Of a stretch of DNA of 64,000 nt, positions 3,366-32,929 are shown piece by piece. How positions within the stretch are numbered: position 1 is the stretch's first letter; every line of letters starts with the position of its first letter. Position numbers and translations under genes: made by a program. Source of the stretch: Warburgia ugandensis (Eukaryota > Streptophyta > Magnoliopsida > Canellales > Canellaceae); NCBI GenBank assembly GCA_035236585.1, contig CP141132.1, positions 65,461,880 to 65,525,879 of the forward strand. Direction: 5' to 3'. Under the pieces are notes generated by a model. It was given only the letters and a program-made list of their open reading frames with translations, was not told where the DNA came from and did no database searches.

Positions 3366-4513
3366 AAACACACCCACACTTAAGGTGTGTGCATTGACTT
3401 CATTACAGAACATGTTCACTACATATCAAAATCCCGTTACAACATATAAAAAACATTCATTTAAATGCAAAGGAAATAAAAAGCGAACCTATTATGACAA
3501 CAAGTGGAATCTTTATCAAGTGATGACCAGCCTTCAGCAATTATAGATCAGGATCCCACTTTGAATGATAATGATCCCACACTTGATAATGATGATCCCG
3601 CTCCTGATGATAATAGTCCCGCTTGATGGTACGTGTTGGTGAAGATATCGAGTTCTACTCTTCAAACCAAGCAAAGTAGTCACACCTCTTTGCCGGACAA
3701 TGGTAGTAATACCTGCAAGGATTTGTTTCTAATTTTGATTTCCCAACTACAGGTTCCAATCCACAAGAACATCGTTGCATGTTGGAAGAACTGCCTATAG
3801 AGTGCATCTAAACGTTAATCAAGTCTCATGGTTTATATAACATGCTTAAATACATAGAGTTCATTAATTAGAACTCCAAAAAATATGCTATTATAATATT
3901 CAAGTAAGTAATTGCATAATAGTCAAGTAATTTTGTGAGAGTACAAACATGGGTTTGGTTATTTCTTTGTTCAAGGAAAGATTAGTAACAAGCACATATT
4001 TATTGTCCTAGGATCAGGTTGTTGATATTGTAGTGGGACACTTGGATCAAATCAGTTTCGCGTAATTGCTTCCTTTTGGTAGGGTTGTCATCTAAAGCAT
4101 GAAAGAAATACCCTTCTCTGATGCCCTCTATTTCTGTGCTTACAAAGAAATATTGAAATTTGTCACGAAGAATTAGAGACAGTATGCATTATGTGCATTA
4201 AGTTCTTCCAACTTAGTAAATTCTGGATATTGCAATCATCTAGACTGCTCAGGTTGACGTTCTTCAGGCACCGACTGTGTAATAGATGTCTTCTTTATGC
4301 ACCTAACCCTCCTACAATGTCTTAAGAAGGAGAAATCGATAGAGGCATTACTGGTATTTAAAAAAAGCAAACGGTGAAAGGAGAAGGAAACCTAACATAA
4401 TGACATTCTTGCAAAGTTTTTCAAAACTTAATGGCATTCCTGCAAAAATTGAAAATGGTTGGATTTTCTTGCAAAAATGCCATAAATTAATGGCATTCCT
4501 ACAAAAATTCCAT

Positions 4514-5589: not shown

Positions 5590-6730
5590 GTATAACCAAA
5601 ATATTATGTTAATTTTGCTCCATATCCACACAAACATTCTTTCTTGGCTTTCCCCCAACAAAGTTCCTAACAAGGCATAGTTTGACATACTTCTAACTAT
5701 GTCCAACAAGGTCCTATTTCTCCTTTCAACAACTCCATTTTAGTGCGAAGTATAAGGTAAATTAAGCTGGTGTATGATACCCTAGTTTTTATAAAACTAC
5801 TCAAATACTTCACATGTATTCACTACTTATATTAGACCTTAAAACTTTAATGATCTACAAAGTTGGTTTTCTACCTTAGCTTTAAATTCTTTAAATTTAT
5901 TTGGCACTTTGAATTTCTTACTTCAATGATACACATATAGACCTTAGAATAATCATCAATGAGAGTAATGAAGTAGATACTCCTCTGTGGTTTTAACATT
6001 CAATGGACTATAGACATAAAAAAGAATAACTTTTAGTGGCTTAATGGCTCTTTTCCTTATGTCAAAGAGAGTCCTAGACATTTACAAGAAAAACAATGTT
6101 CATATACTTTAGTTTTTTTGTAACCTTCGTATTAAACTATACATAGTCATCCTTTCTAACTTATCTTTATTTATATGGTTTCACTTAAGATGTCATTATA
6201 AATAGTTGAAGAAAGTAAACAATCATAAGCAAAAGGATTAATCTAATTCATATTTGTGGCAAACATACTAGCCGCATCGAGTTTATACATAGCATGACAC
6301 AAAAATGCCAGAAAATAGAATAGTTTTTTCTCTACAACAGTAGCCTCATTCTTGTGGAAGCTGACTTCAAGTCTTTTAGCAACAAGTCTAGGAATAGATA
6401 TCAAATTATGCTTGATTTCTGGTGCAAAGAAAATCTCTATCAAAAGTAGTGTCTCCCACTAGGAAATGTCGTTCCATATAGTCTGCATGCTCTTTGAAGC
6501 TCATTTGCTTTGGAGTCCATGAAGAACTCTCTGGTCTTAGCATTATGATAGATAGAAACATGGTCTAGCAAGCAAGAGTTTTCATCAAATCGCACTAATA
6601 GTGACTTAATAATCATATAGATAATATCTCTTTCTTTAGCCCTACCATCGTTGTTTGGTCCGTTCCCCCATCCTTGCTTTTCTTAGGGCAAATAGACTTG
6701 ACATTTTCAAACTAACAACAAACCTAGTAA
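5590..6730 (-). mobile_element. Ty1/copia retrotransposon fragment: GAG-pre-integrase and integrase
   Basis: Read on the minus strand, this region shows copia pol landmarks in the right order but in shifting frames. A GAG-pre-integrase piece lies at 6443-6243 (PEIKHNLISIPRLV). Next comes integrase core text resembling FITLIDDYSR near 5960, followed near 5730 by the NGVVERRNRTLL-type motif of copia integrases with a stop just before it. Upstream pieces near 6700-6450 fit the zinc-knuckle and protease end but are poorly kept. No LTRs, reverse transcriptase or RNase H were found, so this is an internal fragment with frameshifts and stops. Confidence 0.8.
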
Positions 6731-7460
6731 GCTCCATTCTTCTTTTCCTTTCTTTTAGAACACTGGTTTTCAAGTAAGGGTAAAGTTATCATTCTTATAT
6801 TTTGAATGACTCAATAAAACTAGTTAAGATTTTTAGTTTTTTGGGTTCTTTTTTATGCATTAAATTTAAAGTTATTAAACGGTTTTCAATGGCTTATTAG
6901 TCCATGAAATCTAAAATAGGGGTTTTTTTTATAGCAAAAAATACTTTCAAATATGATCTATCTTAATTTTCATGTGTATGTGTGTGTAATCAATCTTTGA
7001 TTTGATTAAAAATTTAAGGCAATTAGATATATGTGGACTCCACATTCACTATCTTCGTGCAATCATTTACATGCATAACACCTGCAAGAACTTGTCTTCA
7101 GAAACTGCAATAATAGTCATTTACTTGGTAAAGTTTTTAACCATTATTTTCTCTAACTTTTTTTTTCAGCCAATCAAATATCACCTGCACCTGCATGAAA
7201 GAACTGAAATTAACCAGAAACATGCATATAATTGAGTTTAAAAACTCTCACATACGTACGCATTTAACGGAGACATGATAAGACGACTCGCAAACAGAAA
7301 CAAAAGAAGTTACAGACTTCCATTGGGTTCCTTCATTTCTCATCCATGTGATGCAAAAACAAGTTAAAAATAATAATATGGAAAACCAGACGGAAGCACG
7401 AACCGGCAAGAACAAACAACGTTAGCAAGAAAATGTGAAACAAACATCACCAGCATCATG
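6731..7460. other. No recognisable gene
   Basis: AT-rich non-coding DNA, possibly the 3' flank of the minus-strand reading frame at 7616-7972. Nothing else can be supported. Confidence 0.4.
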
Positions 7461-23441: not shown

Positions 23442-24088
23442 AGGAAATGATGTAAAATAGGGAACGATGATGAAAGGCTACGAATGAGGGATTGAGAACA
23501 ATGAATGGTTGGGAACCACATGAAATTAGGAGTGAACAAGGGAGAGATAGATAGGGAATGGTGAAAAGAGATGGAGCGATTGACGGCTAAGGATCTTCGT
23601 CAGAGCTCCTTGTTACAGTCCTATGGTAGAGAGATTTGCTTTAGTCACCTCTTTATAGTGAAGAAGTCCCACCAGTGGAGCTCTACTAGCTCCCCTCCTT
23701 ACAGAACTATACTGGTCTCTCTTTCTTTCTTTTTTAAAGCCTACTTTATAATCCCAATATTAACGATGCACCCTTGTCTTTTCTATCTTCACCTTCTCAG
23801 ATTCTACGATGATGCATCTTCCACTACTTAGTCTTAGGGTGTAATACCCCAGGGTTCCAATAGTCACAATATTGTCCACTTTGGGGTGCCCATACACCTC
23901 TCACGGTTTTGCTCTTCCCTAGTTTCCTAGAAAAAACGTGATGTGACTATTACAGTTCCTCGAACTCTTATAAATAGCCCAGTTTCCTCTCTTCAGGCAA
24001 TGTGGGACTAACTCTCTGTCCTTCACCCTAGCCTAGAAGCCTGCCAGCCTTCTCTTGGCCTGCCCTCATCAGCCCAGTGCTTCACATA
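23441..24088. other. No gene; repeat-like segment at 23835-24010
   Basis: The stretch containing GGGTGTAATACCCCAGGG and later CTTATAAATAGCCC then CAATGTGGGACTAAC has the look of a retroelement LTR or promoter repeat (TATAAATA near 23970), but no ends were identified. Confidence 0.35.
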
Positions 24089-24310
24089 GGGGTGGCAAAA
24101 TATGACACAACACGATAACACAACTTGAACCTGACATGGATTTAGTGGGTTAGGGTTGAGCCTTCTCATGTTCGTGTCATGTTTGGGTTGACCCAAAAAT
24201 GACAAGTCATAAATTGTGTCGTGTTCATGTCAATCAATGTTGACCTGTCATGTTGACCCATGTGACATGCGACGTGGTAAAACTTTAAGTTGAACTAAAT
24301 GACACGTGAT
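24087..24310 (+). mobile_element. hAT-like left terminus with subterminal repeats
   Basis: TAGGGGTGGCAAAATATGAC followed by multiple copies of GTGTCGTGTT / GACACAACACGA-like motifs, which is typical of plant hAT subterminal regions. The opposite end at 32612 reads inward as TTGGGATGGCAGATCGTG. The two termini match at T-GGG-TGGCA. No 8-bp target-site duplication could be matched on the two sides. Confidence 0.65.
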
Positions 24311-24326
24311 GTTAGCAAACATTAAA

Positions 24327-24715
24327 TAGGATGGTTTCTGAGTAACAGTCCAATATTTGAACTGATAAACGATTGGACAATACGTTATATAAGACGGTTA
24401 GTAAGTAACCATCCTATATAATAAAAGGTTATACTGTCGAACATTTATAAATTATATAGGTTCCTAGAGGCTATAGGACGGCTTAGACAAAACCGTCCTA
24501 TATTTTATATGTTCTATAAGATGGTTGATAAGTAAGCGTCTTATATTTATATGCTATATAGGATGGTTATTAAATAACCGTCCTATATATTAAGGTTTAT
24601 AGGATGGTTATTAATTAACCATCCTATATTTTAAGATTCTATAGGACGGTTATTTTTTAACTGTCCTATTTTTAATAAGTGATATAAGACGGTTACCAAA
24701 TACCCATCCTATATT
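24327..24715. repeat. Array of about 8 imperfect ~32-bp palindromes (left array)
   Basis: Each unit has the form TATAGGACGGTTA - short spacer - TAACCGTCCTATA, with A/G and C/T variants (for example near 24393, 24470, 24516, 24552 and 24600). Units recur about every 45-50 bp. The same array lies in the facing position at 32105-32345. CACTA elements often carry such subterminal palindromes, although no CACTA terminal sequence was found here. Confidence 0.85.
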
Positions 24716-25529
24716 AGTAAAAAGAATTTGTAATATTTTGATCAATCTAACTAATCTAGAGGCTTTAAAATTCTATTGTGATCATTGATCTTGAGGTTTT
24801 GATATGCCTTGGATCCATCCATCTGATCAGATTTCTATTTTAAGGTCATCTTGATTATGATCCATTACCTGCATTACTGTCCAAGTGTCCAGTGTGTGAC
24901 TCCACACACAATTCTCTCTTTCCATTAGGCATTAGTCCATCCATTAAACACAACTTCACTCCTTAGTCCTCACATATCAAAACCTTGTCTTGACTCTTGA
25001 AGGCTTGAAGCCCTGAACACACCAACCTCCCATCATTAAAAATTTGAAATAAAGCAAGCACACTGTACACACAATCACATTGACACATACATACTTGAAT
25101 CAAAACAAAAAATGGAATACAACCATAGTAATGGATTGATGTGTCAAAATAACACATTCACATTCAACCTGCTATATTTAAAATCATTGTACAAATTCAC
25201 TTCTGCTCCATACAGTTCACATTGAATTGAACAAATAAAAGCACACCCAATCACCCATACTGTACTATACATGATACAACCCATTTGCTAATCTAAGCCA
25301 TCATTGAAAATTGATGATCAACCCATCTGCTGATCAAGACACCAGCTTCCCAATCACATCATTGAAATTTGGAAGTTTGAAACAAAGAAAGCATGTACAT
25401 TGAAACAGTGTACTTCAATCAAAAGAAAAATAGAACACATCCATAGTAATGAACTAATCTTTGTATTATATTTGAGTAAAATGTATATGCATGAATGATG
25501 ATACTGATACATTTATTTACATCATTGAA
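24716..25529. other. No recognisable gene
   Basis: Non-coding; 3' flank of the minus-strand Ulp1-type gene. Confidence 0.5.
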
Positions 25530-28525
25530 CTACAAATTAAAATTCATAATATGATCTGTCCATTCCATTCTAATATCGTCTAAATCCAACTGGTAGTAAC
25601 TCTTGCTTCCCAAATCCACCTGCAAGAAACATATAATAACTTAGTTCAGACATGTAATCTTGGATTCGGTCAGGAAATATACAAATCAAAAGTGTAACAT
25701 TGGTCAGTAAGTCTTACCTTTCTCAATTGTGAGATTGTAACTCCATTGCGAATGAGGGTTCTCATGTATCTGAGAACATAATACCCACACTCTCAATCTG
25801 ATTTTTGTTTAGGGCATTGCAGAGCAATGTCACCAAAGACAACAGAAAAGGTTCAAAATATCATGTCAAAAGTCAAATAAGTTTAGGTTTAAAATTATAT
25901 CAAAGAGTCTAAAGAGCAGTAATTAGTGAACTGTACCTTGGCCTTCTTCCAGTTGAGTTTTGGTGGGTGGTCAATGCCTTCCCGTTTAGCCCATTTATAC
26001 CATGCTCTACACACATATAATAGAAAAGCATTAGATTATGAATCGTATGATAGTTGCCAGGTGAGTAGTTATATTATAATGAAAGGAATAATAAAGACTT
26101 ACTTGTTTATAATTTCCATCAGGTGTTCCCGAATGTGTGCTCCACACAAATCGAAAAAAATTGCATGGCCACCATGCACATCTAGAGCTAGTAGCATCCA
26201 ATGGGACTTATAAAAATAATAATTCAATTGTATATTCTTTAATCTTAACTGATATAGATATTTATGTGTATGAATTATGAAATTGAAATGGCATAATTAA
26301 GAAACATATGTTATAACGTACTCGCTATTGTAGGAAATCAGTAAGGCTTGCCCCTTTGCACAACCCATGAGCCTAAGAATGATATCTTCACTTTGTTAGT
26401 TCGCGGGCAAATAGTCCAATCGAAAGACAAGAGAAGGGTCAAGGAACTTGTAAATGTCCTTGACCTCTAATCTTTGCAAGCTATCGTGCAAATACCTGCA
26501 TTGGGAATTTGGGTAAATGTCAAATAATTATCAAGTGTTATTAAAAAAGTAAGTAATGTTACTTTGATCTGTAATAGTTTAACTCTAATAGAGCAATTAC
26601 ACGACAACATACCCTACATAGACTACGATGTGCATGTATTCCAATTGAGCCATATTACATATGGCTAAGAGGTCTTCCTTGAAGAGTGGAACCTCAACCA
26701 CATCATTTGAATGCACACTTGTCTCTATCCTTACGGGATTCATTGCGTTATCTTCATTGGCCAGTCTGTATAGTATCCTTAGGAATGGAGGCGTGTTAGG
26801 TGGAACCTCCACCTGATCCCTACACTGTAGATGTAACATTTTAGAAATTAGTAATGAATATATACAACATATATTGGTATACTAGCATATATAAAAGAAG
26901 AGAGACAGTGAGATAAAATTATAATATTTTATCATATATTGGGATAAGGTCTTGATGACCATGATGATGAAAGTGAAAAGAAGCGCATGAATTCCATAAA
27001 ACACCTCTAACCATTACTTTAAGTAAGATTAAAGTTCTAAACCTAAGATAAGATAATAAAACTTTTTGATCTCTAATTACTTCAAGTAAGAATCTAAGAT
27101 CACAAATTTTAACCTAGGAAAAAACAACAAAACTTTTTGAGCTTGTGGGCATCTAACAAATGTTTACAATGAGCTTGTGACTTGTGAGCACCTAACAAGT
27201 GCTTTGAACTTATTAGTTGTTGCATCGTTCAAGTCCACACGTAACATGATACAACTATGCAAATATATAGAACTAGTACTACTTAGGAAGGCTGGGATGG
27301 GGCTACACTTGCCACTACGCCAAAAGTTGCTGGCAGGGAGGTTGGCTTCAATTGCCCCTTGTGCTGCTTCTGGTGATCCGACATGTTGCAGACAATATTA
27401 ATCAATTAACAATTTAGGATGACTTAAAAAAGGTAGGAGAAAATGATGCCATGACTACAGTTAGAATATATGTAGCTTGGAATTGGATATTGTTGGTTTG
27501 ATATGTTTCTCTGGCCAAAACACATGATATCCAATTGCATCCCCAACTGCTTCAACATCATCCCCTTGGATTGGAAATGGAAGAGGAGCATCTGATTGAA
27601 TGGCAACAGTGATGCACACGCACTTAGTGTGTGGAGGCATCAACTTGCCATGTAAGGTAGTGGAAGTCATGGGCTGAACCTCCTACAGTGTTGCCACAGC
27701 CACATAGTTCTCAGATGTATGTAGCTGCAATATGCACTGACCCACCTGCAATTGAGAAATGACATATATATATATATAATGATTAGTGATGTAAACTAAA
27801 AAGGTTATTAAATAATTAAACATTGTAAAACTAAACATGTTAATATACATACCTCACTGATCGGGACATCACCTTCAAGTACTTGCTCTGCCACCTCTTT
27901 GTCTGATGGAGGACTAGCAGTGTAGCTATTGTCAGATTGGGGTGGTTGAACTTGAACTTGAGGTTGAGCTTGAGGGCCAACATCCTCACATGAGGTTCTT
28001 TCGCCACCTTGGAGTTCCTTCAGCAATTGATCTTTGACCTTGCTATATATCTCCACAACGGTTTACTTCTTCCATTCTTCCAATTCTTGTAGCATATGAG
28101 CCTTTTGTTTAGGGAAGAACTTGGAAGGAACAACACCACGACCTTGGCCCCTTACCCTGCCAGGGTGCTCTTCCTTGTTGCCCATTGCCCTATACAGGAT
28201 ATTCCCCTTTGCAGCAGTGCTGCTAAGAGTCCTTGTAGTTGCACTTTCTTGGGTCAACTCTGCCTGCAAATGTAAAGATCATAACATGATCAAATCCCTA
28301 TTATATATGTAATATTTATATAATGCAAGAGTATAAAAATATAAAACTAGTTAACTAGGCACATAAAATAAAAGTATAAAACTTAAAGTCTTAAACCACT
28401 TACAAATCTTGATGCAATTGCTGCAGTTGTCTTGTTAGCAAAGGTGTGGAAGTTACACCATTTTGAATGTGCCATTTTCCATAGAAGAGCACCGTCGATG
28501 GGCTTTGTTGTCCTAGCCTTCTATT
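25530..28525 (-). pseudogene. CACTA (En/Spm)-type transposon protein ending in a Ulp1-like cysteine peptidase domain
   Basis: A multi-exon minus-strand gene, read from about 28525 down to the stop at 25530. Exons I can place: ~28525-28404 (ALLWKMAHSKWCNFHTFANK), 28263-27853 (GRVRGQGRGVVPSKFF, then a polar Gln/Pro-rich stretch), 27744 to ~27460 (DAPLPFPIQGDDVEAVGDAI), 26824-26613 (VPLFKEDLLAICNMAQLEYM), 26495-26322 (YLHDSLQRLEVKDIYKFLDP), 26206-26103 (SHWMLLALDVHGGHAIFFDL), 26006-25937, 25791-25718 (ECGYYVLRYM) and 25619-25530. Several show clean GT/AG borders. The last four form a C48 (Ulp1/SENP) fold with the His (SHW), Asp (FFDL) and Cys (ECGYY) of the triad all present. In-frame stops near 28064 (WKK-stop-TVVEIY) and 26375 (LPAN-stop-QSED), and an unclear junction before the Cys exon, suggest it is broken. 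Such proteins are known from plant CACTA ORFs. Confidence 0.7.
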
Positions 28526-28608
28526 GCTGCTAAGAGAGATACTAAGTCAAAGTTAATAAAATAATAATCTACTATGATTAGACAAATAAAATGTCACATG
28601 ATATACTT

Positions 28609-30169
28609 TGTGACACCCTGAGTTTTTATTTCAAACCTTTTCCCTATAATAGTGAAAATAATAATATGTTTTAAGAAAAATAAACGGGGTCCCTGAAAAT
28701 GAAAATTTAAAGTATAAATTTTTTAGCGTAGCTTTAAAAGAATTGACTGAAAGCAAAAATTGCGGGGTAACCACATTCAAAAACTGTAATAATAAATAAC
28801 ATTAAAAACTTTGATACTCTGAGCATGCTCGATTTAAAACCATAAGAAATATACAGGCTAATTAAAGATAATAATAAATTAAGTCAAAAGTCACCAGGTT
28901 CCATCCATGACCACCACAATATTTACATTTAAGATTTAAGAATTCTCCATATCATAATATGGGTTCAATCTATCCAAATATATCAACATCTAAGTAAAAT
29001 CTCAAAAGTCTAGTCTAAGAGATACACTAATCTATCTTTGAATAGGTAAAGCGATAGTCTTCAAAAATCTCCTCTCAAATCGATGCTACTCCTCTTGCTT
29101 TCCTTTCTGACTATCGTGGTCCAAATATGAGGCATTGCAAAATAAAGCAATGCCTCAGCAAGCTATGCTTGTGTAGGTGATTACACTCAAATAAAGTTTA
29201 ACAAAATTTACAATATGTCTCTCATGAAGGAAACATATATAAGACATGTCAAATAATCAAACGCTCATAATTATAAACCTTCACAAAACAGGTATCAAGT
29301 TAAATCAGGATGGCATACAAGGCATGATCAAAATACAAAGGTACGTACATCAAAACAATACGAGTCTATGTCCACAGGATAGTATGCATGCAATCATGAT
29401 AAACAAGACACTATATCAAAACAATACCAAAAATGTCCCAAGATACTCAATCATTGGTGATGTGTACCCATACTAACTCTGGGTCCCTCCTGTGCAGCCC
29501 GCATCAGCCCTCGGAGTACCTCATGGCTTAGGCTCGGCTTGCCCTGGTTCACCCCACATATAAATCCATATGAACATGCAGAATAACTATATGGGCTACT
29601 ATGCTGCAGTGCCAACCCCATCAGGATCTGAACCACTGCCACACCCTGTCGACACCCAAACGGGAGACTTTCTTCGTCCTCATGGGAAGGAACGAACCCG
29701 TATGGGGGACTACCCATGATACCACCACCTATGTACCTAGCCCTGTATCACTTAAGGGTGGTGTCTAATCATCAACCTCACAAAGTCAGAGGGCGGGTGG
29801 CCAACCCTACAACCCTCATAGCATAATACTCACTAGGTGGAAGCACCTGTCATAAATCATCAACAAGATATAAATCATGTAAAGGCTCTATAAATAATCC
29901 CAATAAATACAATCAAAGCCCATGATAAGATAGTGCATCACATGTAAACATAGTTATTAACAAAATGAAATATCATGCTACGACATGAAAGTAGGGATCT
30001 ATTTATGTGCCATGAGAAGACATAAAACACATGCCTCAAAAACTTTAGAGATCCAGTCATGGTTACTAAAATCAGGAAGCAATTGAATGAAATTACCTAC
30101 CTCGATAATTGCAGTACTCTAATCAGGTGCGTGGAAGTGTCACATCGTGCTCTCTGACATACCTGTCAC
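28609..30169 (-). mobile_element. Probable gypsy-class solo LTR
   Basis: Bounded by TGTGACACCCTGAG and CCTGTCACA. Interior text (CCTCATAGCATAATACTCACTAG near 29813 and a GC-richer block at 29460-29840) has the same layout as the solo LTR at 51474-54132, which has TGAGTATAGTATATACTCACT. No coding. The 5-bp target duplication was not found, so the right boundary is uncertain. Confidence 0.5.
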
Positions 30170-30746
30170 ATTATAAATCCTCTATCACTTAGTAATTCAA
30201 CGATGTCTATCCTTCTAATCCCCTATATCATCTCACATTCTATATATACCATCAAGGTCTAAGGCCTGATCATCCATTGGTGAGCCTGATTTAGATTATC
30301 TAATGATATTTAATGGCTTAACCCTTAAAAATAAATTTATATTTAGATTATCAAGTAAAATCTAGGTCCGCATAGTCGATACGATCGCAACGCCTCTTTC
30401 GAATTGCGATTTAGACCTCTATAGCTCTTAAAAATCAAATTTTTGTAAATGGACGAGTCAGAGAACCCCAAAAATCCAGAAAAAATCGCATCGCAGGTGC
30501 CTCTCGTGCGTGTATCTCTCTCTTCAATGAATATATGGTTAAGAGTTCTCCTATTCCTTCCTAATCTTCCCTAGTGGCTAGAGGTATTGGTGATAGACAA
30601 AACTTGTCATATAGTCAAGAGGTTTTAGATATCATGAAGGTAATTATATTTATAATTGTATCTTTCATTATATGTCCCTTAGTATATTAAAATTTACTAC
30701 GAATTGTCTTACAGTAAGTTGAATAATATAATTGCATTTGCATTAG

Positions 30747-31342
30747 GAATTTGATTCATATGAAAGTGAAGGAGGTTCTTTGGCTATGCAAAAATCATAA
30801 TTGGAGCTTTATTTGGATGAACCAAGATTGCAAGAGTCAAAGCTGGACATTCTTGCATTCTGGAAAGGCAATCAATACAGGTTGGTTGACTAATAATCTC
30901 TTGTCTCATGAAAACACTATTTCTTGTAATCTTATTTACATTTATATTTGATTCAGATGTTGATTTTAGGTATCCTGAACTTGCTACCATGGCTCGTGAT
31001 GTCTTGAGCATTCCCATATCTACAATTGCATCAGAGTCTGCTTTTAGTATTGGTGGTTGAGTTCTTGACCAATATAGATATGCTTTAAAGCCAGATACAG
31101 TGCAAGCATTGATTTGTGTACGAGATTGGCTATATGGATTGAAAGGTAATAATTTATGATTCTATATTTAAATTATATTTTATATGAGCTTAGTAATGAC
31201 TAATGCATGTTTATTCTATATAATTGTAGACTATACCATTATAGTTGCTATGGATGAGCTAGCTGAGGACATTGTAAGCATAAGTAGCAGTGCAGGATCA
31301 CCTCAACCAACTGAAGACTCTAGAACAATTCATTTTGATTAA
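30747..31342 (+). pseudogene. hAT transposase, C-terminal exons with dimerisation domain
   Basis: Three exons with proper splice signals: 30747-30880 (EFDSYESEGGSLA, then LELYLDEPRL and LDILAFWKGNQY), 30970-31145 and 31230-31342 (ends TIHFD-stop). Joined in phase, the middle exon encodes the hAT C-terminal dimerisation region (RYPELATMARDVLSIPIS, then ASESAFSIGG, then DTVQALICVRDWLYG). Two in-frame stops are present, one after QKS in the first exon and one replacing the Arg of GGRVLD in the second. The N-terminal BED finger and catalytic part were not found upstream, where solo-LTR sequence and the minus-strand Ulp1-type gene lie. This is therefore a truncated, inactive remnant. Confidence 0.85.
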
Positions 31343-32104
31343 TTTGTATAATTTTCATAACTTATATTAATTTGTTGTGTTTGATACATTGATGGAAGTA
31401 GATTTCCCTCATGTGCTACTTAATCCCCAGTTATTTACTACTATTGTGATTATTTGATTCATGTGAATCTCTTTTAGACCTCATGTGATGTGAATAGTGT
31501 AAAGTACTGTGTTACTTCTAAATAAAATATTACACAAACTTTATTGGTAATTTAGTATGGTTCAAGGTTTACCAATATTAGTTGGTAATGCTTTTCTATG
31601 TTTGTCTGTGTAATTGTCATGTGGACGAAGCAATGACCAATGACAATGAGCGTGAAAGGAGTTGGGTTGGGGAAATGAATTCCATCCTATCAATTCATGT
31701 GGAGGTTGAAAGTTCTAGTCATAACTGAAAGACCCATGCCATCTATTCTTCTTCTATTCTTTCCATTCATTTGCTACAACAATTCCATTCATTGGTCGTG
31801 TGCTAGCATCTTTTGTTGGCTAAGGCTCTTCATCCTACACAAGAAAGCTTGAATATGAAGTTCTTATTCTTGAACGAGGACATCTTACAGCTTACTCAAG
31901 TTAAGCATTTAGATTTAAGTGTCATGTCATGTGCTATTGTGATAAACCCAAGCACTGAAAGTTTGAAACAAGTAGATGCAATTTTTTATTTCTGCTATAG
32001 AACCTCATTGCATCAAGGTATCATCTCCTTTAGAAGATCAGAAGTAGGGGCCAACTTTTTAGAATCAGAAGATTACAGATAGCCATGCTGGTACCTGGTA
32101 TAGG
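31343..32104. other. No recognisable gene
   Basis: 3' flank of the hAT remnant. The 89-codon plus frame at 31813-32082 has no recognisable family. Confidence 0.45.
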
Positions 32105-32345
32105 TTAGATATATATAGGACGGTTAATAAGTAACTGTCCTATTAAAGGTTTTAAGTTGTATTATATTTAGGCTATAGGAAGGTTAATACATAACCGTCC
32201 TATATTTTTATGCGTTCTATAAGATGGTTAATAATAGGCATCTTATATTTGATGTTATATAGGATGGTTACTAAATAACCGTCCTATATTTTTATGGTCT
32301 TATATGTTTTATAGGACGGTTTTAAAATAACTATCCTATATTTTA
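32105..32345. repeat. Array of about 5 imperfect ~32-bp palindromes (right array)
   Basis: Same unit as the left array at 24327-24715 (TATAGGACGGTTA ... TAACCGTCCTATA with variants), at about 32109, 32164, 32218, 32258 and 32306. Confidence 0.85.
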
Positions 32346-32394
32346 GGATTAGACCATTAACGGTAGTTTTTAACTAACTCATGTTAAGGAATCG

Positions 32395-32612
32395 AGTCTT
32401 TTCATGTCGTGTCGTGTCATCCAACACGACTCAGTCACTTAATTGTGTTACATGGGTCGTGTTGTGTCAATTTTTTAAGAACTAGGTCGTGTATGAGTCA
32501 TAGGTTTTGGACACGACTATTAATCATGTCATGTTCGTGTCGATCCATAACTCTAATCGTGTCGTGTTCGTGTCGACACAAACACGATCTGCCATCCCAA
32601 ATTGCCAGGCCT
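32395..32612 (-). mobile_element. hAT-like right terminus with subterminal repeats
   Basis: Many TGTCGTGTCGTGTC-like motifs, ending CACGATCTGCCATCCCAA. Its reverse complement begins TTGGGATGGCAGATCGTG and pairs with the left terminus at 24087. Together they bracket an 8.5-kb composite. Confidence 0.65.
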
Positions 32613-32929
32613 ACTTAGTCTTGCCTTTTTCCTCTATGGGTTTCCTTTTTCAATTATTGCTAACTCCCCCTTTAGGTTACTCCTTTCAATTAGAAATAGT
32701 CCCAGTATATATCCCTTTGCCATCTCCATATTGCTTTGTAGGGTGAGGACAATATGGTGGAAATCAGCTCAATTCGAGTCATCAAATTCCTAATCTGGTT
32801 GATTTGTAGTACATATAACCCAATTAGAGTCATCCTAATCATAATTTATTCATCTAATCAACTTCGATGATCATCTAGCCATTAGAATTCAGCAATCAAT
32901 GATTAGATGATTAATTGGGACTAAAAGAC
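32613..32929. other. No recognisable gene
   Basis: Short unassigned stretch between the hAT-like terminus and the resumption of copia reverse transcriptase. Confidence 0.4.

Follow-up and report, generated by a model that had tools for sequence, protein, structure and literature searches.

The 64-kb stretch of Warburgia ugandensis DNA analysed here (the window) contains, at positions 24087-32613, a decayed copy of a multi-copy hAT transposon family. This copy is dead, and it combines the remains of a hAT transposase gene with a second gene, encoding Ulp1-like (Peptidase_C48) sequence, and with arrays of short palindromes. Positions given without a contig are those of the window, and all others refer to the 1.12-Gb genome in 14 contigs (C1-C14). 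An earlier reading of the letters (the sequence-only reading) had described the same order at both flanks, namely a hAT-like terminus, subterminal repeats and then palindromes, and this order is indeed seen in the window; its left boundary stands, whereas the right end lies one base beyond the 32612 that it gave. The terminal inverted repeat (TIR), which we take to be of the hAT type, reads TAGGGGTGGCAA / TAGGGGCGGCAA in most younger copies of the family, with small changes in two.

The eight left and five right palindromes that had been reported were found again by eye, with units of ~31 bp. Their half-site ATAGGACGGTT, at ≤1 mismatch, occurs 19 times in the 64-kb window, every time within the two arrays (0.61 expected; 0 of 100 shuffles reach 19). 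Between the arrays, the plus-strand exons assigned to a hAT C-terminus match Dimer_Tnp_hAT (1.4e-10), and the proposed multi-exon Ulp1-like gene on the minus strand comprises ten exons that match Peptidase_C48 over the cut-off (5.1e-7, exons joined with X at stops); when the exons of this gene were submitted one by one, Pfam returned no match.

The 8.5-kb element falls short of the full unit that it had been taken for. It has lost its centre, including the upstream exons of the Ulp1 gene that are present in other copies, two further palindrome arrays and most of the hAT transposase gene, and it holds a 1.9-kb foreign piece. The lost centre measures ~4.5 kb in copy C3a, in which 4826 and 9312 are the counterparts of window positions 28608 and 30515. 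The foreign piece starts with a TGTGACACCC-like sequence, and this start resembles that of a long terminal repeat by eye, with no clear partner end seen. No target duplication surrounds the window copy, whose flanks are GCTTCACA and CTTAGTCT. Its left flank (23839-24086) is part of another repeat, of which the Ulp1 gene in copy L024 contains two occurrences, and the sequence of this repeat in L024 does not run on into the right flank of the window element. The missing duplication and this discontinuity suggest that the window copy was rearranged.

Other copies and the full-length architecture

Genome searches with the element and with its right part, both of which give lower bounds on copy number, returned at least 106 matching pieces from 32 scored candidates and at least 57 pieces from 40 scored candidates, respectively. 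Beyond the window, the left (Ulp1-gene) part has matches at no fewer than 29 places and the right part at no fewer than 39, and 2 more places match the foreign insert alone. Twenty copies were fetched, three of which were extended to the right end (C12b and C3a complete, C13a without its left end). The longer copies of the family measure ~11-13 kb, and the order in the extended ones is: left hAT end, palindromes, minus-strand Transposase_24-Ulp1 gene, central region, plus-strand hAT transposase gene, palindromes, right hAT end. The central region between the divergent genes contains palindromes and repeats of ~95-106 bp, the latter deduced from shifted BLAST matches (C12b about 5646-6451, C13a about 5983-7424) and apparently variable in number among copies. 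Half-sites at ≤1 mismatch form four clusters, two terminal and two central, in all three fully mapped copies, and two clusters in the window; the two facing arrays of the sequence-only reading are hence not the full layout. Their counts are 27 in C12b, 30 in C3a and 39 in the younger copy, against 0.25, 0.1 and 0.1 in single-base shuffles. At the place where C12b loses Ulp1 exons, copy L028 has an open frame (4082-4483) that by eye resembles a piece of a reverse transcriptase of a long interspersed nuclear element.

The family is also abundant by its short signatures. The exact palindrome has 1416 forward and 1375 reverse matches across the genome (some places being counted on both strands) and none in the control, and the right-type hAT terminus at ≤2 mismatches has 812 matches, again with none in the control. 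Five stretches elsewhere on C1 were read, and the three exact-palindrome clusters in them all lie within elements of the same kind. Over the first 19.6 Mb of C1, 41 of the 86 listed palindrome places have an exact right-type end no more than 13 kb outward of them; 1000 random-end trials gave a mean of 1.06 and a maximum of 11.

Target duplications and transposition as one unit

The hAT elements and the CACTA-like module within them transpose together, as one hAT unit. Among the younger copies, all eight that were read at both ends have exact 8-bp target duplications (Table 1). For thirteen older copies, counting the window, both ends were read and the duplications assessed by eye. The 8-bp duplication is exact in four (C9:24036596, C7:30056547, C8:61347425, C14:24231818); in two the match is 7 of 8 bp (C12:61921838, C12:16889772) and in two 6 of 8 bp (C4:65386346, C1:92283764). 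In the other five it is unclear or absent (the window, C3a, C1:23717894, C2:14832106 and C8:31094337, the left end being damaged in the last two). Three copies read at one end (C13a, C1:812221, L054) and nine left ends without right ends are outside this count. Both genes lie between exact 8-bp duplications in C1:1001370, which was read throughout, and in C8:61347425, as judged from matches to the left and right parts; they lie between 7/8 duplications in C12:61921838-61933289 (read throughout) and C12:16889772 (by left- and right-part matches). Further full copies sharing this end order and flanked by 8-bp duplications were thus searched for and found, upholding the earlier suggestion that the structure moves as one unit. 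The remark of the sequence-only reading that a simple insertion of a CACTA element into a hAT element is inadequate also proved sound, as the order recurs within hAT duplications.

By the defining features tested, the element is a hAT. The 8-bp duplication is found in the family, though not in the window copy, and a transposase with BED, RNase-H and dimerisation domains is present, its domains coming from different copies. CACTA termini with a 3-bp duplication were not found, the duplications being 8 bp: 24087-32613 contains no site with CACTAC and ≤9 mismatches to the 24-base CACTA terminus of this genome, and therefore only repeats of the subterminal type were taken up. TNP2 (PF02992) was not reported for the exons submitted to Pfam, and none of its best 150 genome matches falls in the window.

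Table 1. Features of the window element and younger copies of the family with exact 8-bp target duplications
Feature	Position	Strand	Remarks
hAT left terminus	24087..24320	+	TIR TAGGGGTGGCAA at 24087; subterminal repeats of the GTGTCGTG type; other places in the genome have similar ends
Left palindrome array	24322..24716	none	Eight ~31-bp units of the type TATAGGACGGTT-N7-AACCGTCCTATA, counted by eye
Decayed Transposase_24-Ulp1 gene, exons A-J	25530..28526	-	Hand-set model on the 19-row alignment
Transposase_24-Ulp1 exons A-E	28526-28404, 28263-27853, 27745-27476, 27369-27283, 26824-26613	-	
Transposase_24-Ulp1 exons F-J	26495-26322, 26207-26103, 26006-25937, 25816-25718, 25619-25530	-	
Foreign 1.9-kb piece replacing the element centre	28609..30514	none	Mostly matches C8:48299489 and C11:48807851
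Last hAT transposase exons	30515..31342	+	~30515-30639, 30747-30880, 30970-31145, 31230-31342; internal stops; edges by eye
Right palindrome array	32111..32343	none	Five palindromes of the same type as in the left array, counted by eye
hAT right terminus	32390..32613	-	GTGTCGTG subterminal repeats and TIR (TAGGCCTGGCAA on minus)
Younger copies	C1:1001370-1014279, 7118717-7131991, 9154976-9168112, 11862076-11875306, 12089030-12102411, 16826222-16852163		
Short younger copies	C1:9510511-9514689, 5986043-5990351		~4.2-4.3 kb

The two genes

The plus-strand gene of the family matches zf-BED (5.6e-5), the hAT RNase-H domain (3.4e-21) and, through the C-terminal exons of the window copy, Dimer_Tnp_hAT. 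The minus-strand gene was modelled on an alignment of 19 rows, consisting of the window and 18 of the 20 fetched copies, L027 and L028 being excluded for coverage. The window gene has 6 in-frame stops across the ten-exon model, and the best aligned copy, L021, has 1 stop in exons A-J. The minus-strand protein of L021, with one exon edge set by hand, matches Transposase_24 (1.2e-11) and then Peptidase_C48 (9e-6), both above the cut-off; without the upstream exons the Transposase_24 match falls below it. In a comparison with solved structures, a sentrin-specific protease was the best match (1.1e-5). All four residues H, D, Q and C occur in exons G and I of the window, interrupted by a stop, and L021 has other residues in place of the H and D; we take His-Asp-Gln-Cys to be the catalytic set of an active Ulp1 (C48) SUMO protease. 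Stops and frame breaks likewise interrupt the Ulp1 gene of the younger copy C1:1001370. A genome profile search with PF03004 at an E-value of 0.001 gave no match here or in the control genomes, probably owing to the introns that interrupt the domain.

A CACTA family of the same genome

A pattern in which CACTAC lies close to the half-site has 8 matches in the genome and 2 in the control. Of the four matches retrieved from these 8, one (L070) is the terminus of a CACTA element and has decayed palindromes, two (L071 and L073) are hAT-family ends, and the last, L072, is a short stretch resembling L071. The terminus taken from L070, CACTACTAAAATTTGGGCTTTATA, recurs at 711 places in the genome with ≤3 mismatches (control 1). 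We sampled 18 of the 34 listed exact plus-strand termini, with at least one per contig, and half-sites stand in rows at all 18 of these CACTA ends, with 32 at ≤1 mismatch against 0.1 expected and 128 at ≤2 mismatches against 1.0 expected from single-base shuffles. The half-site consensus is WATATAAGAYGGTT in the CACTA family (165 sites, arm spacing 17 or 18) and WATATAGGACGGTT in the hAT family (76 sites, arm spacing 18). In half-site, arm spacing and period the hAT repeats agree with those of the CACTA family. When the 150 listed genome matches to TNP2 were compared by eye with 100 listed termini, 7 were found 1.2-1.7 kb inside a terminus and one at 6.5 kb, all on the same strand.

The sole CACTA interior read covers 2.8 kb downstream of the TNP2 match at C1:45239526, whose terminus is at C1:45241671. 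Residues 60-493 of the second protein of the hAT family have a homologue encoded there (tblastn 2e-57; pieces of 39-63% identity), with a DNA identity of 66.9% over 1892 bp. Five introns lie at matching places in the two genes, four of them with both edges alike; the fifth (B|C) also agrees in position, but its acceptor AG has changed in the CACTA copy and its donor is visible in translation only. The hAT family thus contains two features of the CACTA superfamily, a Transposase_24/TnpA-like gene and palindromic subterminal repeats. The earlier proposal that a hAT element had captured a CACTA gene and its ends is therefore supported for the gene, whose Transposase_24 part has a counterpart in the one CACTA copy read inside, and for the subterminal-type repeats, which have counterparts in the same-genome CACTA family, but not for the CACTA termini, none of which was found in 24087-32613.

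Two side observations concern the CACTA family itself. In the CACTA copy L092, a portion of the first Transposase_24 exon occurs twice, ~490 bp apart. Four same-strand CACTA termini at C2:35894103, 35895446, 35896792 and 35898153 are ~1.35 kb apart, as if in tandem.

Codon constraint and decay of the arrays

In the Ulp1 gene, the younger copy differs from the majority of the old copies at 39/539, 26/540 and 52/542 of codon positions 1, 2 and 3 (.072,.048,.096) and at 145/1121 intron positions (.129); the difference between positions 1+2 and position 3 has a p of 0.012, and that between exons and introns a p of 8e-7. The corresponding values for the transposase are 24/370, 13/371 and 36/370 (.065,.035,.097; positions 1+2 against 3, p 0.004), with three old copies forming the majority and 109 of 1475 columns with conflicting phase tracks excluded. 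This third-position excess suggests that the source copies of both genes were under constraint. Among half-sites with one mismatch, the change is a C>T or G>A at a CpG in 8 of 12 cases in the window, 12 of 20 in C12b, 9 of 27 in C3a and 1 of 19 in the younger copy, which we read as methylation decay of the old arrays.

Origin of the module

Taken together, these data make it likely that a hAT lineage took up an accessory module of the CACTA (En/Spm) type, comprising a TnpA-like Transposase_24-Ulp1 gene and the palindromic subterminal repeats that are its putative binding sites. On the best reading, the lineage then kept the captured module across many copies.

A number of observations weigh against this reading: 1) The direction of transfer, from CACTA to hAT, is drawn from published work and not from a tree. 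2) Only one CACTA copy was read inside, and its homologue covers the Transposase_24 part; the Ulp1 domain was not seen there because the fetched stretch stops before the C48 part. 3) A genome search with PF02902 (Peptidase_C48) gave 9 matches, none of which, by eye, lies in the window, among the places matching the Ulp1 part, or near the listed CACTA termini or TNP2 matches; the search also missed the split exons of this hAT family. 4) The consensus half-sites WATATAAGAYGGTT and WATATAGGACGGTT differ by one base, and the CpG is mixed C/T in the CACTA family. 5) Among the copies read there is no intact copy of either gene, and hence no intact two-gene copy. 6) Seven of the eight younger copies with exact duplications were read at their ends only, C1:1001370 alone being read throughout. 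7) The constraint comparison depends on one younger copy, which is itself decayed, and the old copies compared among themselves show no third-position excess in either the Ulp1 gene (diversity.121,.101,.108; introns.076) or the transposase (.099,.103,.086). 8) While 15 of the 36 palindrome clusters in the first 19.6 Mb of C1 have an exact right-type end, 21 are without a listed exact hAT end; all three of these 21 that were read (63099, 11862466, 16826443) do have a hAT end, only exact ends having been listed.

Of the competing explanations, the one that survives best, though we regard it as unlikely, is that the Ulp1 gene is a functionless passenger acquired by transduplication, that the palindromes are ordinary sites of the hAT transposase and that the likeness to CACTA is due to convergence or chance. 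Subterminal transposase sites are usual in hATs, and no constraint was seen among the old copies. Passengers are also frequent in plant TIR transposons and include Ulp1 in Mutator-like elements (MULEs) and CACTA elements (PMC2528002). Against this stand the match of half-site, arm spacing and period to the CACTA repeats, the homologous gene in one CACTA copy, the codon constraint between lineages in one comparison, and the arrays in the centre between the genes, distant from the ends. The idea that the palindromes are purely the hAT's own was dropped after the L070 terminus and the 18 sampled CACTA ends had shown half-sites.

It is still less probable that the transfer ran from hAT to CACTA, or that both families received the module from a third element. 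The comparison covers two families; against these scenarios, Transposase_24 and C48 occur in CACTA elements of several angiosperms (PMC8978399), and subterminal repeats read by a TNPA-like protein belong to the CACTA class (PMC2613891).

Chance nesting of a CACTA element in a hAT element, or the reverse, with joint decay, might seem natural given the abundance of both in this genome and the missing target duplication of the window copy, but it is hardly credible and was rejected, as 8-bp duplications are common to many copies and surround the whole, the order recurs, hAT exons lie between the terminal arrays in all three fully mapped copies, a search of the window element for a CACTA terminus found none, and C1:1001370 and C8:61347425 have both genes between exact duplications.

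A possible mechanism

If a hAT lineage did capture the CACTA module, we infer that the resulting element works partly like a CACTA element, and by analogy with TNPA and VANC the Transposase_24-Ulp1 protein probably binds the arrays and aids transposition or counters silencing. In such a scheme, the hAT transposase would cut at the TIRs, while the second protein would bind the palindromes of the terminal arrays and of the central region that separates the genes. Once bound, it would probably help to bring the ends together (synapsis), relieve silencing at both promoters, or do both, which would explain the presence of arrays at the ends as well as in the centre. Relief of silencing could consist of the removal of SUMO-linked or DNA-methylation marks. 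Such roles would parallel those of the CACTA protein TNPA for Spm and of VANC for VANDAL elements. The Ulp1 part may itself strip SUMO off silencing factors where the protein is bound, which is the least supported step. Short non-autonomous copies bearing the arrays would be served in trans. A wider and more speculative proposal, which we consider possible but would not call probable, is that a portable cassette for anti-silencing or for licensing transposition, made up of a DNA-reading Transposase_24-Ulp1 protein and the palindromic arrays that it targets, moved between unrelated superfamilies, had its target re-tuned by one base and let a 13-kb hAT family spread.

Relation to known systems

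Accessory genes with an Ulp1 domain are a recurrent feature of MULE and CACTA elements. In CACTA elements, for instance of Chenopodium, Transposase_24 is followed by Peptidase_C48 (PMC8978399), and TNPA-like proteins bind CACTA subterminal repeats that are able to form palindromes (PMC2613891). In grapevine, Ulp1 domains occur in MULE and CACTA families such as Cactavine, and the hATs contain foreign sequence, with Ulp1 unmentioned for them in the available text (PMC2528002). Vandal MULEs have VANC genes with Ulp1 (PMC13317346), and VANC binds tandem motifs and lowers methylation (PMC5735166), its binding to such motifs being described also in PMC10398659. A hAT element with Ulp1 or C48 was not found in the literature searched, repeat databases and subscription papers lying outside this search, which makes it weak evidence of absence. 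A third superfamily taking up both the gene and its presumed DNA targets would imply that the two work as a pair, and a single genome with two related proteins and two targets one base apart offers a natural test of this.

The Warburgia element resembles several known systems and differs from each. 1) With CACTA (En/Spm) elements it shares the succession of Transposase_24 and C48 and the palindromic subterminal arrays, but its TIRs and transposase are those of a hAT, its duplications are 8 bp long, and no CACTA terminus was found in it. 2) With plant hATs of the Ac-like BED/RNase-H/dimerisation type it shares the transposase domains, the TIR and the 8-bp duplications, and it differs by the divergent Transposase_24-Ulp1 gene, the four palindrome arrays and a length of 11-13 kb. 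3) In VANDAL and KAONASHI (KIU) MULEs, compared for arrangement alone, an Ulp1-bearing accessory gene (VANC) is likewise found with tandem short non-coding motifs; the transposase there is that of a MULE and here that of a hAT, with array binding putative. 4) Hatvine-6, a grapevine hAT with transduplicated sequence, is likewise a hAT holding foreign DNA; its inserts are often unique or in few copies (PMC2528002), whereas the W. ugandensis family contains one transposon-derived module in many copies.

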